Shown in pieces: positions 1,472-59,575 of a stretch of DNA of 64,000 bases (the first letter of the stretch is position 1; the number at the start of each line of letters is the position of its first letter). Both the position numbers and the translations under genes were made by a program. The notes under the pieces are model-generated. The model ran no database searches. It saw nothing but the letters and a program-made list of their open reading frames with translations, and was not told the origin of the DNA. This DNA is from Pseudomonadota bacterium (GTDB taxonomy: Bacteria > Pseudomonadota > Gammaproteobacteria > JAKAQQ01): assembly GCA_021810635.1 (NCBI GenBank), contig JAJZIH010000001.1, positions 124,001 to 188,000 on the forward strand, in the 5' to 3' direction.

Positions 1472-3010
1472 CTACCAGCCGGCGGCACGCCCATCGGCAC
1501 GTGAATCGGATCCGGCTACAAAGCCTCCGTCCGCCGTTCGCAGGATGAGTTGGGCCCGCCCGAAGCCATCCGCTGATCCCGCCCGGACGATCTCGTGCCC
1601 CCGTTGAGCGAGAGCACGCCGGATTTCTTCCGAAAAGTCGGGCTCGACCAAAACGCGCACTCCGCCATCCCACCGCCAACGCGGCCGGTCGACCGCCTCC
1701 TGGGGGTGCGAACCCTGGTCGATGAGAGCCTGGACCAGCTGGAGATGCCCCTGCGGCTGCATGAATCCGCCCATGACCCCAAAGGGACCCCATGGCCGTC
1801 CCCCGCGCATGAGGAATCCGGGCATGAGCGTGTGATAGCTGCGCCGGCCACCACCGGCCCGGTTGGGATGTCCATCGTTCCGGCTGAAACAGAGCGCCCG
1901 GTTGGAAAGGGCGATCCCGGTTCCCGGAACCACGATCCCGGATCCGAAGCCCATGTAATTCGACTGGATGAAACTCACCATGAGTCCCGACCGGTCAGCC
2001 GCCGCGAGAAAGACCGTGCCGCCGAGGAACGGCTCTTCCGGCCGAAAAGGGCGTGCCGTGGGTCGGATTCCGGCTGCGCGCTCCCGGAGATAGCCCGGGT
2101 CGAGAAGCGCGGCAATGGCCGGACAGTCGCGCGGGTCGCCGACCCGCTCTAGGGCATCGGCAAAGGCGAACTTGACCGCCTCGATGCTCTCGTGCAGCGC
2201 CTCGACGGGATCCGCGGGCGTTCTCCCCGACAAGATTCCCAGCGCTTCGAGCGCCACGATACCTTGGCTGTTCGGCGGCAGTTCGCAGACCTCGCAACCG
2301 TGGTAGGAAATGGACAGAGGGTCCACCCAAAGGCTCCGGTGGCCGGCTAGGTCAGATGCCCGGAGCGGCCCGCTGTCTGCTTCCGCCGCCTGATCAATCG
2401 CCTGTGCGATCGACCCCTCGTAGAAATCTTCCGCCCGGGTTTCAGCGATCCGCTCGAGCGTGCGGGCCAGCGCCGGGGAACGCCAGATCGCCCCCGCCCG
2501 GGGCACAAACCCGGCCGGGAGAAAGGTGTCCTGCCAGGCGGAAAAGGCCGGGCCGGCAAAGCGGTCGGCTGCCCTCCGCCAAAAACGGGCCACCACGGGA
2601 GACAGCGGAAAACCGTCACGCGCATAGCCCACCGCCGGCGCAAACAGTTTTGGAAAGGGCAGCCGTCCGAACCGTTCATGGAGATCGGCCCAGGCCCGCG
2701 GCGCACCCGGCACCATGACCGGCAGCCAGCCGGTTTCCGGCCACGGCTGTTGCGCCCTGGGCAGGGATGAGGCCGCAGGCAATGCCCCCGATCCGTTCAA
2801 CCCCCAAAGTCGTTCCCCGTCGGAGACCAGGGCAAAGGCGTCGGAACCCAGGCCATTGCTGGTCGGTTCGACCACCGTGAGGGTGATGGCGGTGGCCAGC
2901 GCCGCATCGACGGCATTGCCTCCCTCCCGGAGGATGAAGAGCCCGGCTTCCGCAGCCAGCGGTTGGGACGTCGCCACGATCCCCCGGCTGGCGTAAACGC
3001 TGGACCGCAT
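1472..3010 (-). CDS. Gamma-glutamyltransferase family protein (Ntn hydrolase)
   Basis: The 512-residue protein belongs to the gamma-glutamyltranspeptidase family. It has the N-terminal block SNGLGSDAF and the autoprocessing/catalytic threonine in GGTVFLAAAD (Thr332), followed by SFIQSNYMGFGSGIVVPGTG, a block typical of the YwrD-like branch. Cleavage before Thr332 should give a large and a small subunit. Family members cleave or transfer gamma-glutamyl groups of glutathione and related compounds. No signal peptide is apparent, so it may be cytoplasmic, unlike E. coli Ggt. The ATG at 3010 is preceded by GAGGG at good spacing; the open frame continues upstream only through the antisense of the neighbouring symporter sequence. 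It starts 8 bases after the symporter stop, which suggests that uptake and cleavage are coupled. Confidence 0.88.
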   Translation of the reverse strand: MRSSVYASRGIVATSQPLAAEAGLFILREGGNAVDAALATAITLTVVEPTSNGLGSDAFALVSDGERLWGLNGSGALPAASSLPRAQQPWPETGWLPVMVPGAPRAWADLHERFGRLPFPKLFAPAVGYARDGFPLSPVVARFWRRAADRFAGPAFSAWQDTFLPAGFVPRAGAIWRSPALARTLERIAETRAEDFYEGSIAQAIDQAAEADSGPLRASDLAGHRSLWVDPLSISYHGCEVCELPPNSQGIVALEALGILSGRTPADPVEALHESIEAVKFAFADALERVGDPRDCPAIAALLDPGYLRERAAGIRPTARPFRPEEPFLGGTVFLAAADRSGLMVSFIQSNYMGFGSGIVVPGTGIALSNRALCFSRNDGHPNRAGGGRRSYHTLMPGFLMRGGRPWGPFGVMGGFMQPQGHLQLVQALIDQGSHPQEAVDRPRWRWDGGVRVLVEPDFSEEIRRALAQRGHEIVRAGSADGFGRAQLILRTADGGFVAGSDSRADGRAAGW

Positions 3011-14721: not shown

Positions 14722-14922
14722 CTAGCCTCCGCCCACAGCCTGGATGATCTCGATGACATCGCCTTCGCCCAGCCGGTATTCAGGGTACTGACTGCCCGGG
14801 ATCATCCGCCCGTTGCATTCGACCGCCCGCTTGCCCGGCCCGAGAGCCAGACCGGCCAGAAGATCCGCCACCGTGAGGGCGGTGTTCACCTCGCGGGGCT
14901 CACCATTCACGACAATGTGCAT
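14722..14922 (-). CDS. thiS: Sulfur carrier protein ThiS
   Basis: A 66-residue ubiquitin-fold protein with the diagnostic C-terminal Gly-Gly (AVGGG) that is adenylated and thiocarboxylated. The internal pattern [31 protein letters not shown] fits ThiS. It has one Gly beyond the usual GG end, which may need trimming or be tolerated; other ThiS proteins end exactly at GG. It is followed directly by thiG. A TAAAAT element ends 6 bases before the ATG, so the transcript may be leaderless. The ThiF-type E1 at 23451 could activate it. Confidence 0.9.
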
Positions 14923-14928
14923 GACGGC

Positions 14929-14934
14929 ATTTTA
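14929..14934 (-). promoter_or_regulatory. -10 element of thiS-thiG-trmB, close enough for a leaderless mRNA
   Basis: On the minus strand TAAAAT occupies 14934 to 14929 and is followed by 6 bases and then the thiS ATG, so transcription would begin at or beside the start codon. No good -35 is visible. No TPP riboswitch could fit between this element and thiS. Confidence 0.4.
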
Positions 14935-15011
14935 CCCCCCTGCCCGGTTGCGATCCATCCCGGGACCCATCTGCCCCCCGTCTCCGACCGGGGCGAAGAC
15001 GGAGGTTCTGG

Positions 15012-15017
15012 TAAAAT
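15012..15017 (+). promoter_or_regulatory. -10 element upstream of the hemA leader frame
   Basis: TAAAAT at 15012-15017 lies 9 bases before the ATG of the 13-codon frame at 15027 and 47 bases before hemA. No convincing -35 is visible upstream. Confidence 0.4.
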
Positions 15018-15026
15018 TCCCGGGTC

Positions 15027-15068
15027 ATGCACGATCCGCCGGCCGCATCCCCCACCACCCTTCCATGA
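15027..15068 (+). CDS. Possible 13-codon leader peptide coupled to hemA
   Basis: A short frame reads MHDPPAASPTTLP and stops with TGA at 15066-15068, overlapping the hemA ATG (15065-15067) as ATGA. hemA itself has no Shine-Dalgarno sequence: the 18 bases before it are pyrimidine-rich. With the TAAAAT element 9 bases upstream, a transcript could begin almost at this ATG. Ribosomes finishing the peptide would be placed on the hemA start. The peptide has four Pro and two Thr in 13 codons, so ribosome stalling is conceivable. Nothing beyond position supports translation. Confidence 0.4.
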   Translation: MHDPPAASPTTLP

Positions 15069-16357
15069 CCCTTGCGCTCATCGGCATCAGTCATGCGAGC
15101 GCTCCGCTGCGGCTCCGTGAGCCTTTGGTCATTCCTCCGGAACGGCTGGTCACCGAACTGCAGCGGGCACGGACGGATCCCGAACTGCGCGAAGCCGTCA
15201 TCCTGTCCACCTGCAACCGGACGGAGCTCTACTACCGCTCGGAACAGGACGCCGCCCCGGCGCTTGAATCCGGGCGCCGCTGGCTCGCCGGGCTCAATCC
15301 GGATGCCGCCAGCGAGCTCGTCCCCCACTTCTACGGACACGAGGCCCTGAACGTGGTCCGCCACCTGCTCCGGGTCGCCTCCGGCCTCGACTCCCAGGTG
15401 GTGGGCGAGCCGCAGATCCTGGGCCAGGTCAAGGAGGCCTATGAAAGGGCCCATGAAAACGGCTTTGTCGGATCCGAACTCAACCGGCTGTTCCAGTTTG
15501 TCTTCCTCACGGCCAAACAGGTCCGCCAGGATTCCGGGATCGGCCTGAAACCGGTTTCCGTGGCCTCCCTCGGCGTCCGCCTGGCCGAAGAGATTTTCGA
15601 CGATTTCCCCTCCCGGACGGCCCTCCTCATCGGCGCCGGGGAGACCATCGAGCTGTCCCTGCAGCACCTCTCCCGCCTGCCGATTTCGCGCTTCATCGTC
15701 GCCAACCGTTCACTGGAGCGGGCCCGCCGGCTGGCCCAGCCCCGGGGGGGGTATGCCATCACGCTCGACGAAATCCCGGACCACCTGGCGGAAGCGGATC
15801 TCATCTTCACCGCCGTGCAGTCACCGGAGCCGCTTCTCGCCCCCCGGGACATCCAGGCGGCACTCGTCAAGCGGCGTCGGTCCCCTGTGTTCATCATGGA
15901 TCTCGGCCTGCCCCGCAATGTAGATCCAAAGGTCGGCCAGCTGCCCGGCGTCTTCCTCTATACCCTCGAGCACCTCGAATCGCTGGCCCGGCAAAATCGC
16001 CATGAGCGCAGGCGGGCAGCCGAAACCGCAGAGGGCGTCATCGACGGGGCGATTTGCGAATATGCCACAAGCCTCAGGGGTCGCCAGGCGATCCCCACCA
16101 TCTGCGCACTCCGCGAACAGGTCCAGCGAAGCCGTCTTGAGGCCTTGGCCCAGGCCCGACAACTCCTCGAACGGGGTGAGTCTCCCCACGCGGTCCTCGA
16201 GCACCTCGCCCACAGTCTGACCAACCGCTTCCTGCACACCCCAACCGTCCAGCTGCGGGAAGCGGCCGAGGAAGGCCGTGACACCCTGATCCTGGCTGCC
16301 CGCGACCTCTTCGGCCTAGGCGAGCCCCCTCCTCCGGAAAAACCTGCGAAGTCCTGA
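15065..16357 (+). CDS. hemA: Glutamyl-tRNA reductase
   Basis: A 430-residue enzyme that reduces glutamyl-tRNA(Glu) to glutamate-1-semialdehyde, the first step of tetrapyrrole synthesis by the C5 route. The catalytic cysteine is Cys50 in LSTCNRTE. The substrate-binding block VASGLDSQVVGEPQILGQVK, the NADPH motif LIGAGETIELS and the C-terminal dimerisation helix (from about residue 300) are all present. The start ATG aligns with the family N-terminus (MTLALIGISHASAP). It is followed after one base by prfA. Translation may depend on the upstream leader frame. Confidence 0.95.
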   Translation: MTLALIGISHASAPLRLREPLVIPPERLVTELQRARTDPELREAVILSTCNRTELYYRSEQDAAPALESGRRWLAGLNPDAASELVPHFYGHEALNVVRHLLRVASGLDSQVVGEPQILGQVKEAYERAHENGFVGSELNRLFQFVFLTAKQVRQDSGIGLKPVSVASLGVRLAEEIFDDFPSRTALLIGAGETIELSLQHLSRLPISRFIVANRSLERARRLAQPRGGYAITLDEIPDHLAEADLIFTAVQSPEPLLAPRDIQAALVKRRRSPVFIMDLGLPRNVDPKVGQLPGVFLYTLEHLESLARQNRHERRRAAETAEGVIDGAICEYATSLRGRQAIPTICALREQVQRSRLEALAQARQLLERGESPHAVLEHLAHSLTNRFLHTPTVQLREAAEEGRDTLILAARDLFGLGEPPPPEKPAKS

Positions 16358-16358
16358 C

Positions 16359-17462
16359 ATGGATCCGACCGACCCCCTGCTGGAACGCCTGCGTCCGCTC
16401 GCCGAACGCCACGCCGAACTCGCCCGTCACCTGACCCAAAGCGAGATCATCGCCGACCGCGAGCAGTTCCAGACCTTGAGCCAGGAATGGGCACGGCTCG
16501 ACCCGGTGGTGCGGGAAGGAGCCGAGCTCGCGCGTCTTCTCCACGAACGCGAGGAGACCGAGCTCCTGATCCGGTCGGCACCCGACCGTGATCTCGGGAC
16601 CCTGGCGCGTGAAGAGCAGTCCCGGCTTGACGCGCTGATCGATGCCTGTCGCTTGCATCTGGCCGAACTCACGGCACCACGCGACCCCGTCGAGAGCCTG
16701 AGCTGCTTCCTCGAAATCCGGGCGGGGACGGGCGGACTCGAGGCGGCGCTCTTTGCCGGCAGCCTGTTCCGGATGTACAGCCGCTACGCGGAACACCGTG
16801 GCTGGACGGTCGACGCACTGAGCCAGCATCCCGGGGAACAAGGGGGTTACAAGGAAATCATCGCCCGCATGACCGGCTCCGGCACCTATGCTGCGCTCCG
16901 TTACGAGGGCGGGACGCACCGGGTCCAGCGGGTTCCCAAGACCGAATCCCAGGGCCGGATCCACACCTCGACCGCCACGGTGGCCGTTCTGCCCGAAGCA
17001 CCCGAGGGCCCGGGGCGGATTGAGATCCCGAGCCAGGACCTGCGCGTCGATACCTTCCGTGCATCGGGAGCCGGCGGGCAGCACGTCAACAAGACCGAAT
17101 CCGCCGTCCGCCTGACCCACCTGCCGACCGGTCTCGCGGTGGAATGCCAGGACGAGCGTTCCCAGCACAAGAACCGCGCCCGCGCACTGTCCCTCCTCAC
17201 GGCCCGCCTCGCGGCGCTCCGTCAGGCGGAGGAGGACCGGCAGGTCCATGCCCGGAGACGGGACATGATCGGCAGCGGAGAGCGCGCCGAAAGGATCCGC
17301 ACCTACAACTTTCCCCAGAACCGGGTCACCGACCACCGCATCGGTCTCAGCCTCTACTCGCTCGATGCCTTCCTTGAGGGCGATCTCACACCGCTGATCA
17401 CCGCGCTACAGGCGGCCCAAGTCCAGGGCGCCTCATCCACTGGCGGGAGGTCCTCCGGCTGA
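16359..17462 (+). CDS. prfA: Peptide chain release factor 1
   Basis: A 367-residue class I release factor. The GGQ motif that triggers peptide release is in GAGGQHVNKTES. The stop-codon recognition tripeptide in RVPKTESQGR is Pro-Lys-Thr instead of the Pro-Ala-Thr of E. coli RF1; PxT still marks RF1, which reads UAG and UAA. It follows hemA with a single base between stop and start, the common hemA-prfA order. The usual next gene, prmC, is not here but at 21939. Its last 30 bases overlap the end of a convergent membrane-protein gene. Confidence 0.95.
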   Translation: MDPTDPLLERLRPLAERHAELARHLTQSEIIADREQFQTLSQEWARLDPVVREGAELARLLHEREETELLIRSAPDRDLGTLAREEQSRLDALIDACRLHLAELTAPRDPVESLSCFLEIRAGTGGLEAALFAGSLFRMYSRYAEHRGWTVDALSQHPGEQGGYKEIIARMTGSGTYAALRYEGGTHRVQRVPKTESQGRIHTSTATVAVLPEAPEGPGRIEIPSQDLRVDTFRASGAGGQHVNKTESAVRLTHLPTGLAVECQDERSQHKNRARALSLLTARLAALRQAEEDRQVHARRRDMIGSGERAERIRTYNFPQNRVTDHRIGLSLYSLDAFLEGDLTPLITALQAAQVQGASSTGGRSSG

Positions 17463-53921: not shown

Positions 53922-53963
53922 ACCCCCTCCTCCGCCGGCCGGCCTCTTGGGAACCCGTTCTGG

Positions 53964-53969
53964 TAGGAT
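53964..53969 (+). promoter_or_regulatory. Extended -10 of gloB with leaderless spacing
   Basis: TGG immediately precedes TAGGAT at 53964-53969, matching the extended -10 pattern TGnTAnnnT. Seven bases separate it from the gloB ATG at 53977. No Shine-Dalgarno site exists before the ATG, which fits a leaderless transcript. Confidence 0.45.
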
Positions 53970-53976
53970 CGTCGTC

Positions 53977-54780
53977 ATGATCGAAGTCACGGCCATCCCG
54001 GCACTCCGGGACAACTATATCTGGCTCCTCGCCCACGGTCCGCAGGCCGTTGTGGTTGACCCAGGGGAAGCCGAACCGGTCCGTCGCCATCTCATGCACG
54101 GGCATTATCATCTCGACGCTATTCTACTCACCCACCACCATACCGATCATACCGGCGGCGTCGCAGAACTGCTAGCGTCCCACGCCGGCCCGCCCCCGGT
54201 CGTCTACGGGCCTCCCGGCGTCCTCCCGGACCTCCCCGTCCGGACGGTCGGGGAGGCCGACCGCATCCGGCTCTGGCCCGCCCTCGAACTCACGGTTCTC
54301 GCCGTCCCCGGCCATACGCTCGACCATCTCGCCTACCGGGGTTCCGGCCTCCTCTTTCCGGGCGACACCCTGTTCAGCGCCGGTTGCGGGCGGCTCTTCG
54401 AGGGCACGATGGAGCAGCTCTTCGCCGCGGTTGAACGCCTGGGGTGCCTGCCCGCCTCCACCCGGACCTACCCGGCCCACGAGTACACCCTCGCCAACCT
54501 CGCTTTTGCGGCAGGGCTTGAACCGGACAATGCCTTGATTGCACAATACGCTGACCGGGCCACAAACGCACAAATGCGCCAGCAACCGACCTTGCCGACC
54601 TCCATCCAACTCGAGCACGACGTCAACCCGTTCCTGAGGACGCGCGAGCCGACGGTGCGGACTGCGGCCGAACGGCACGCCGGGCGGACCCTTGGCGACC
54701 CCCTCGAGATCTTCTCGGTCCTGAGACAATGGAAGGACACCTCCACCTGCACCCTCACCCTGCACCGGGGACCCCCATGA
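53977..54780 (+). CDS. gloB: Hydroxyacylglutathione hydrolase (glyoxalase II)
   Basis: A 267-residue MBL-fold enzyme. The metal motif is LTHHHTDHTGG, then VPGHTLDHLAY, FPGDTLFSAGCGRLFEGT with the bridging Asp, and YPAHEYTLANLAFA. It hydrolyses S-lactoylglutathione to glutathione and lactate in methylglyoxal detoxification. It ends in an ATGA overlap with mltD. It is divergent from the methyltransferase-rnhA genes, a conserved arrangement. Confidence 0.95.
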   Translation: MIEVTAIPALRDNYIWLLAHGPQAVVVDPGEAEPVRRHLMHGHYHLDAILLTHHHTDHTGGVAELLASHAGPPPVVYGPPGVLPDLPVRTVGEADRIRLWPALELTVLAVPGHTLDHLAYRGSGLLFPGDTLFSAGCGRLFEGTMEQLFAAVERLGCLPASTRTYPAHEYTLANLAFAAGLEPDNALIAQYADRATNAQMRQQPTLPTSIQLEHDVNPFLRTREPTVRTAAERHAGRTLGDPLEIFSVLRQWKDTSTCTLTLHRGPP

Positions 54781-57643: not shown

Positions 57644-59575
57644 TCAGAGCGCGCTCTTCTTGAGCGCCTTCGGATTGATGCGGACATGCCCGACCCGTTC
57701 GAGTTCGTTGAGAAAGAGCTGCATCTCGAGCCCGGATTCCGCGCTTTCCGCACTTTTCGTCCAGGACTCCAGAGCCTCTCCGGCCAGCGCCCGGAAGGGA
57801 GGGATCTGCACGGGACCGGCTTCGACGACGGCCTCGCCATGACCCGCCATGGGAACGACATGGATGGTCCACGGCCCTGACGGGGTCGGTGTGTTGGGTA
57901 ACCGGAACACGGTCGGGACCAGAGCAGCCGGGAAACCAGCAGGCGGAGGTTCGCTCCGCATCAGGGTAAAGGGACCCCGGACCGGTTCTCCCTCCACATG
58001 GGTCACGGCCGTCTCGTGCTCGAGAAGCCGTGCCGCCCGGCGGGCGGCGCGGCGGGTGGCCTGGCGGGCGGCCTGAGCCACCAGCTGCCGGGCAATGATC
58101 AGGCGGACCTGGCCGAAGGGTTTCGGCCGGGCCGGTATCCGACTGACGACCCGCAGGACGACAGCCCGGTGCCCGGACAGGCGGATGGGCGCGCTGTTCA
58201 ACCCTCCCTGCAGAACGCTCGGTTTGAAAATGGCATGGATGACGGCGGGTTGCCCGGCCAGTCCCGCTCCGCCCGCTGGCGTGATCCCGGCGATCTCCCG
58301 GACCGGCAGGCCGAGGGTACGACTCACAGGAGTCAGCGTGGTGTCATCCTCGAAGGCGAGGTTGCCCATCTGACGCACCAGACGGCGGTACAGGCGGACT
58401 TCCGCCTGCGCGCGGTAAAGCCGGATGAGCTGGGGCCGGGCTGCCTGGAAGGACATTCGCTGTCCGGCCCGGAGTCCCCGCAGCTTGACGATCTCATATC
58501 CGAACGGGGTGGAGATGGGCCCACGCACGGCACCCACCTTCATGTGCCCGAGCGCACGCGCCATGGCGGAGGGAACTTCCTTGGGAGTGATCCAACCGAG
58601 TGCACCACCATGCGGAGCCGTCTCCGGATCCTCGGAGTCGCGGCGGGCCAGTGCTGCGAAGCGGGCGCCATGGCTGAGCGCGGCCAAGAGCTTCAGGGCC
58701 CGCTCCCGGGCGGCCCGGCGGGTCGCCGCGGTCGTGCCAGACCGGATCAGGATCATCGACACGTTCCACTGGGGGGGCGTCGTGTACCGGGATTCCCGTT
58801 CGGCATACAGGGTCAGGAGGTCATTCAGGGTTGGATGGATGCGATCAGCCAGGGCACTAGCCGTCAGGAGCACATAGGCGACGGTCACCTGCTCGGGGTT
58901 TTCGAAGCGGGACTTTTCCCGGAGGTAGGCCGCATGGAGCGCGGTCGGCGTGACGGCGGCCCGGGCCTGCGCCAAAAACCGCTTCGTAGGAATCTCGACC
59001 CAACGCACCGGGCGGGATTCGTGGGCGTAGCGGTAGCGGTTGCGGATCGAGAGGGGCGGCAGGAAGGCGGTGCCGGCAATGCCCGCCCCGAGACGGGTCA
59101 GGAGCAGTGATTCACGGATCTGGTTTTCAAAGGCGGCCGGGGTGAGGTTCTCCTCGTGCAGGTAATCCTCGTAAAGTCCCATCGAAAAATGATGGTTCTC
59201 GCGGAACGATGGGATGCCCCGGATCGCCCGGGCAATATCGCGGCCGTTCACCCGGATTCCGTCATGCCGGGCCTGGGCCAGAAGCAAGGTCTTCTGGACC
59301 AGGGTTTCAAGCGCCTGCTGTCGGATCACGTTCAGCTCGCCGGTGCTCGGCGTGAAGTGGGGGCCCATGATCGCCGCCAGCCGGGCATACTGGGACTCAA
59401 AGGCCTGCTCAAGCTGGTTGGAGCCGATCGTAATGCCATCGGCCTTGGCTACGTAACTCCCGCCGATGGCGCTCGGGTAGTCCTGTACGCCCCAGAAAAC
59501 GAACGGGATGCCCACGACCACGAGGATGACCCAGAGAACCCACTTGCTCGCTCGTTCACGCAATGAATCCAGCAT
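57644..59575 (-). CDS. ppiD: Peptidyl-prolyl isomerase PpiD (SurA N-terminal type)
   Basis: A 643-residue protein anchored by one N-terminal helix (about residues 12-29). The opening MLDSLRERASKW matches PpiD (MMDSLRTAAN). A SurA-like chaperone domain follows (about 35-260), then a parvulin domain about residues 263-365 (ARRDSEDPETAPHGGALGWI, then GPISTPFGYEIVKL). It helps exported proteins fold at the periplasmic face of the Sec translocon. The ATG at 59575 was chosen; another lies 3 codons upstream. It is downstream of the two tRNA genes. Confidence 0.92.
   Translation of the reverse strand: MLDSLRERASKWVLWVILVVVGIPFVFWGVQDYPSAIGGSYVAKADGITIGSNQLEQAFESQYARLAAIMGPHFTPSTGELNVIRQQALETLVQKTLLLAQARHDGIRVNGRDIARAIRGIPSFRENHHFSMGLYEDYLHEENLTPAAFENQIRESLLLTRLGAGIAGTAFLPPLSIRNRYRYAHESRPVRWVEIPTKRFLAQARAAVTPTALHAAYLREKSRFENPEQVTVAYVLLTASALADRIHPTLNDLLTLYAERESRYTTPPQWNVSMILIRSGTTAATRRAARERALKLLAALSHGARFAALARRDSEDPETAPHGGALGWITPKEVPSAMARALGHMKVGAVRGPISTPFGYEIVKLRGLRAGQRMSFQAARPQLIRLYRAQAEVRLYRRLVRQMGNLAFEDDTTLTPVSRTLGLPVREIAGITPAGGAGLAGQPAVIHAIFKPSVLQGGLNSAPIRLSGHRAVVLRVVSRIPARPKPFGQVRLIIARQLVAQAARQATRRAARRAARLLEHETAVTHVEGEPVRGPFTLMRSEPPPAGFPAALVPTVFRLPNTPTPSGPWTIHVVPMAGHGEAVVEAGPVQIPPFRALAGEALESWTKSAESAESGLEMQLFLNELERVGHVRINPKALKKSAL

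Follow-up and report, generated by a model that had tools for sequence, protein, structure and literature searches.

The 64,000-nucleotide stretch analysed here (the window; positions 124,001 to 188,000 of contig JAJZIH010000001.1, from a gammaproteobacterium of the lineage JAKAQQ01) carries hemA, the gene for glutamyl-tRNA reductase, and immediately ahead of it a short frame, MHDPPAASPTTLP, whose stop codon overlaps the hemA start codon. This arrangement raises the question of whether so short a leader is translated and, if it is, whether it plays a part in the expression of hemA. We suggest that it is a nearly leaderless, genus-specific upstream open reading frame (ORF) that would pass ribosomes to hemA by termination and reinitiation, a reading that we consider about evenly balanced between right and wrong. 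Both the translation of the leader and any effect on hemA are matters that we infer.

The basic features of the locus are as the initial annotation had described them: the frame has thirteen codons, its ATG lies 9 nucleotides downstream of a TAAAAT and its stop codon falls within an ATGA (15065-15068) shared with hemA. This is the RTGA overlap that characterises coupled small ORFs, and it is also found in the two other species of the genus (G001 and G002). Since thiS is divergent from hemA, the hemA promoter must sit within the 142 bp gap between the two genes. Here the -10 region, GGTTCTGGTAAAATTCC, is invariant in all three species, and a -35 element was looked for upstream of it but none was found. 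That the leader AUG would lie within 3 nucleotides of the 5′ end of the mRNA rests on the start predicted at 15024 from this conserved -10 (Table 1).

Leaderless starts are probably in use in this lineage, because a -10 is conserved 6-7 nucleotides before the ATG both at thiS and at a gene starting at 53977. The thiS message is itself probably leaderless, as TAAAAT lies only 6 nucleotides ahead of the thiS ATG, and in G002 a -10 is conserved 6-7 nucleotides before it. At the gene starting at 53977, likewise probably leaderless, TGG-TAGGAT (region 53958-53980) is conserved 7 nucleotides before the ATG in G000 and G002. A count of the pattern GTAAAAT-N4-9-ATG gave 12 matches and a count of the reversed pattern gave 0, although some of the 12 are tRNA promoters or chance matches.

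The comparison within the genus covered the window species, G001 (contig as in YP2.bin4) and G002 (contig as in DBS1-2.bin8), in an order that comprises nine genomes. The leader frame is open in all three species, at 42, 51 and 54 nucleotides, and always closes at ATGA, so that its linkage to hemA is kept while its length differs. Specifically, the orthologue in G002 (locus L003), MHDPPVASSPIPPPLP, has 16 codons and is 9 nucleotides longer than that of the window, while the orthologue in G001 (locus L004), MHDPPASPPAIPPPLLP, has 17 codons and is 12 nucleotides longer; in both the ATG is spaced exactly 9 nucleotides from TAAAAT. The first five codons, MHDPP, show synonymous differences alone (CAC/CAT, GAT/GAC, CCG/CCA), and within codons 2-5 (HDPP) three of the four third positions are variable, as against none of the eight first and second positions (p = 0.018, in a test picked post hoc).

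By itself, the presence of such a frame says little. When the untranslated region (UTR) is resampled by a Markov procedure that keeps its composition, an ATG frame ending in ATGA arises in about 10% of cases, and the overlap requires no extra selection because the conserved Met-Thr start of HemA (ATG-ACC) always carries a TGA. Moreover, 6 of the 29 intergenic genes of the window have some upstream ATG frame that ends near the start (within 15 nucleotides upstream or 10 nucleotides downstream of it), and thus a single occurrence is unremarkable. Genus-wide conservation, in contrast to a single occurrence, is remarkable as judged from the sequences compared. In a neutral simulation, about 4.5% of the runs in which the ATG was kept and both lengths changed retained the frame in the two relatives; overall, with substitution roughly calibrated on neighbouring intergenic DNA, the figure was about 1-2%. 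As a control, four of the six upstream frames in the window, all other than that of hemA, are unmatched in G002; the frame at 58757 was considered as a second conserved case and rejected, as it stems from a misplaced start inside a longer open frame. The conservation statistics, based on three related sequences, favour selection on the frame.

The initial annotation also held that hemA lacks a ribosome-binding site of its own. This is true, the window hemA having no Shine-Dalgarno-like match of at least 3 nucleotides, but not distinctive: of 88 hemA loci examined in other families, 77 lack any match of at least 4 nucleotides, and the sister genus g3 is alike in this respect. Among the 59 window genes conserved with G002, which served for the background statistics, 37 have a match of less than 4 nucleotides, as against about 47 expected by shuffling, with start assignments that are approximate.

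Outside the genus the leader is absent. In g3 (G004, G006 and G008) both the hemA start and the -10, TAAAATTCC, occupy the same places, 47-50 nucleotides apart. A frame is missing there, however, and TCG or TCA stands opposite the leader ATG. In sister genus g2 there is again no leader, and TAGAAT, at the position equivalent to the -10, precedes a HemA that bears an in-frame proline-rich extension of 12 residues. As neither g2 nor g3 has a leader, it is most simply seen as a gain within one genus that is not needed for hemA in relatives. The expectation that relatives would keep the frame was therefore borne out inside the genus, in three of three species and despite the length changes, but not beyond it, where g3 retains promoter and hemA without the frame. 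A leader-like frame in locus L020 was set aside, as it begins inside its own -10 (TAAAATG) and is thus probably untranscribed.

Two observations concern the HemA N terminus, which in Salmonella HemA is a proteolysis signal. At the g2 loci L045, L046 and L061 the extension, MTDPSLSPAPDA and variants of it, precedes the usual HemA start, just upstream of position 3001. In two Rhodocyclaceae (L038 and L043) an in-frame ATG lies 18 nucleotides upstream of the conserved hemA start, right after a TATAAT, and it may provide an alternative HemA start.

We propose that transcription from the TAAAAT promoter would begin about 3 nucleotides ahead of the leader AUG and that ribosomes, with no Shine-Dalgarno site to guide them, would load on this 5′-terminal AUG, decode 13-17 codons and stop at the UGA within AUGA. 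A fraction of them would then re-initiate at the overlapping hemA AUG and account for some share of hemA expression, adding to the initiation that hemA can achieve alone. Such coupling is plausible and not without precedent. Unfolding of the message is not relied on as a mechanism, because breaking the pairing predicted between its 5′ end and the hemA start (Table 1) leaves that start no more accessible: with the upstream AUG changed, the computed cost of opening the hemA start is the same in two species and higher in the third. The folding z-scores of the region run from 0.9 to -1.2. The pairing of the 5′ end, although predicted, does not seem to control accessibility, and GUCAUG is probably not a lock on the hemA start.

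Several points weigh against this proposal. Only three species carry the leader, and being related by descent they count as weak replicates; in g3, which retains the promoter and a hemA lacking a Shine-Dalgarno site, there is no leader, so that hemA can do without one in close relatives. Moreover, a 5′ AUG does not invariably suffice for translation. In Escherichia coli, rhaB has the same architecture (an 8-amino-acid 5′ upstream ORF with an ATGA overlap), and removal of its upstream AUG left rhaB expression unchanged (Beck et al., 2016; PMC4965119). It is possible, though we are inclined to doubt it, that the leader AUG is a bystander, which came by chance to lie among the first bases transcribed and was kept by descent or promoter constraint, with weak translation or none, while hemA initiates independently in a C-rich UTR without a Shine-Dalgarno site. 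This would be consistent with the resampled frequency of such frames in a single UTR, with the 287 of 3456 E. coli transcripts that have an AUG no more than 3 nucleotides from the 5′ end (Beck et al., 2016; PMC4965119), with hemA usually lacking a Shine-Dalgarno site and with g3 managing without a leader. Openness of the frame is also cheap, because stop codons are scarce in all frames of a C-rich UTR. However, a bystander does not readily explain a frame that survives insertions or deletions amounting to 9 and 12 nucleotides, nor MHDPP codons whose changes are all synonymous.

The same survival of the frame bears on an explanation at the level of DNA, in which GTCATGCAYGAYCC, right after the -10, would serve a regulator of both thiS and hemA as operator or initial transcribed sequence and the frame would be incidental, as this leaves the frame-keeping changes downstream unexplained. 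We regard it as unlikely. G001 does have a perfect 16-nucleotide palindrome, GGGTCATGCATGACCC, and thiS of the window begins with the mirror-image GTCATGCAC, but the palindrome is imperfect in the two other species, the window included, and the thiS of G002 does not keep the GTC. The site, at no more than 2 mismatches, has 32 matches in the genome as against 18 for a reversed control, mostly scattered ones with 2 mismatches, and an operator search with GGTCATGCAYGAYCC gave no convincing second site in the genome. The content of the peptide has also to be considered, as the initial annotation supposed that its Pro-Pro pair and threonines might make it sensitive to the state of translation. The Pro-Pro pair is indeed conserved, as Asp-Pro-Pro, but the threonines occur in the window species only. 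If Asp-Pro-Pro at codons 3-5 slowed ribosomes, hemA translation could report the state of elongation factor P (EF-P) or of proline-tRNA, and in favour of this DPP is invariant in the three species while the remainder of the leader drifts, two of the three have added a PPP near the leader end, and Asp before a diprolyl motif is reported to promote stalling (PMC4176338). Nevertheless, proline is favoured by C-rich sequence, an EF-P effect is no more than an unsupported possibility, and a stall five codons past the start would chiefly block loading; we consider this very improbable. Nor does the leader resemble an attenuator or stalling leader, as the threonines are unconserved although DPP is conserved, no terminator-like site was found at the leader and an Rfam search gave no significant match, only a sub-threshold and implausible ybhL hit. 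No evidence was found to link the leader to haem or haem sensing. Finally, it is barely credible that the leader is a frame-shifted relic of an N-terminal HemA extension such as that of g2: the two are similar in place and composition, with Asp-Pro near the start of both, but g3, which is nearer to the genus (g1) than g2 is, has neither, and the non-start triplets opposite the leader ATG in g3 better fit a recent gain.

The remaining features of the locus are collected in Table 1. The next gene after hemA, prfA, is probably in one operon with it. On the other side, an imperfect inverted repeat, GGTAAAAT..GTCATGCAC on both strands, is common to the divergent thiS and hemA promoters (14917-14936 and 15010-15032), and the thiS and hemA messages may both begin near AUGCAC.

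Table 1. Features at the hemA locus, in window coordinates.
Feature	Position	Strand	Basis and remarks
thiS, divergent neighbour of hemA	14722..14922 (start 14922)	-	TIGR01683
Extended -10, TGG-TAAAAT, predicted hemA promoter	15009..15017 (TAAAAT 15012-15017)	+	Sequence conservation
Predicted transcription start, G	15024	+	7th base past the -10, 3 nt ahead of leader ATG; from usual -10-to-start spacing of 6-7 nt
GUCAUG, predicted to pair with CAUGAC (15064-15069) across hemA start	15024..15029	+	Pair probability 0.6-0.9, three species
Leader frame	15027..15068 (ATG 15027-15029, TGA 15066-15068)	+	TGA overlaps hemA ATG; orthologues in G001 and G002
hemA start codon ATG	15065-15067	+	
hemA, glutamyl-tRNA reductase, 430 amino acids	15065..16357	+	TIGR01035, 362 bits (cut-off 210); translation P0001
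prfA, release factor 1	16359..17462	+	NCBIfam NF001859, 452 bits; TIGR00019, 443 bits

Translation of the leader, if it occurs, would make this the first case known from the literature searched of an upstream ORF ahead of a gene for glutamyl-tRNA reductase, a hemA leader peptide having been sought there without success, and leaderless loading would feed an essential gene without a Shine-Dalgarno site in proteobacteria. Were the leader sensitive to EF-P, entry into haem synthesis would be tied to ribosome state in one bacterial genus. Nonetheless, this is a modest addition to what is known of coupling via short leaderless ORFs, as the arrangement is already known from other bacteria.

How does the leader compare with these known systems? 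In Salmonella, HemA is subject to haem-dependent proteolysis (Wang et al., cited in PMC5801465), which sets the amount of glutamyl-tRNA reductase, as the leader might, but acts on the finished protein; nothing at the leader implies a haem input of this kind. The E. coli upstream AUG ORFs are, like the leader, short and out of frame; their AUG lies no more than 3 nucleotides from the 5′ end, as is predicted for the leader, and that of rhaB lies 1 nucleotide from the 5′ end. Most of those tested support some translation, and the effects of removing the AUG range from none (rhaB) to expression falling below 8% (ptrB), with rcnR expression also reduced (PMC4965119). These E. coli genes, however, carry a Shine-Dalgarno site, while hemA here has none. 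For the overlap itself, strict coupling was seen in 13 of 14 overlapping gene pairs tested (Huber et al., 2019; PMC6728339), which share the four-base ATGA overlap with leader and hemA and in which the Shine-Dalgarno contribution differs from gene to gene, although these are pairs of annotated genes and the leader is a frame of 13-17 codons. In mycobacteria, leaderless small ORFs whose stop forms RTGA with the next gene are common, and they persist from one species to another even though the peptide differs (Shell et al., 2015; PMC4633059). The mycobacterial cases are backed by transcription start maps and ribosome profiling, whereas the start and translation of the hemA leader are predicted only; the latter also differs in being proteobacterial, with a predicted 5′ leader of 3 nucleotides and a conserved MHDPP. 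Like the hemA leader, the coupled mycobacterial ORFs overlap the next gene, and it is ribosome delivery that has been proposed as their function (PMC4633059).
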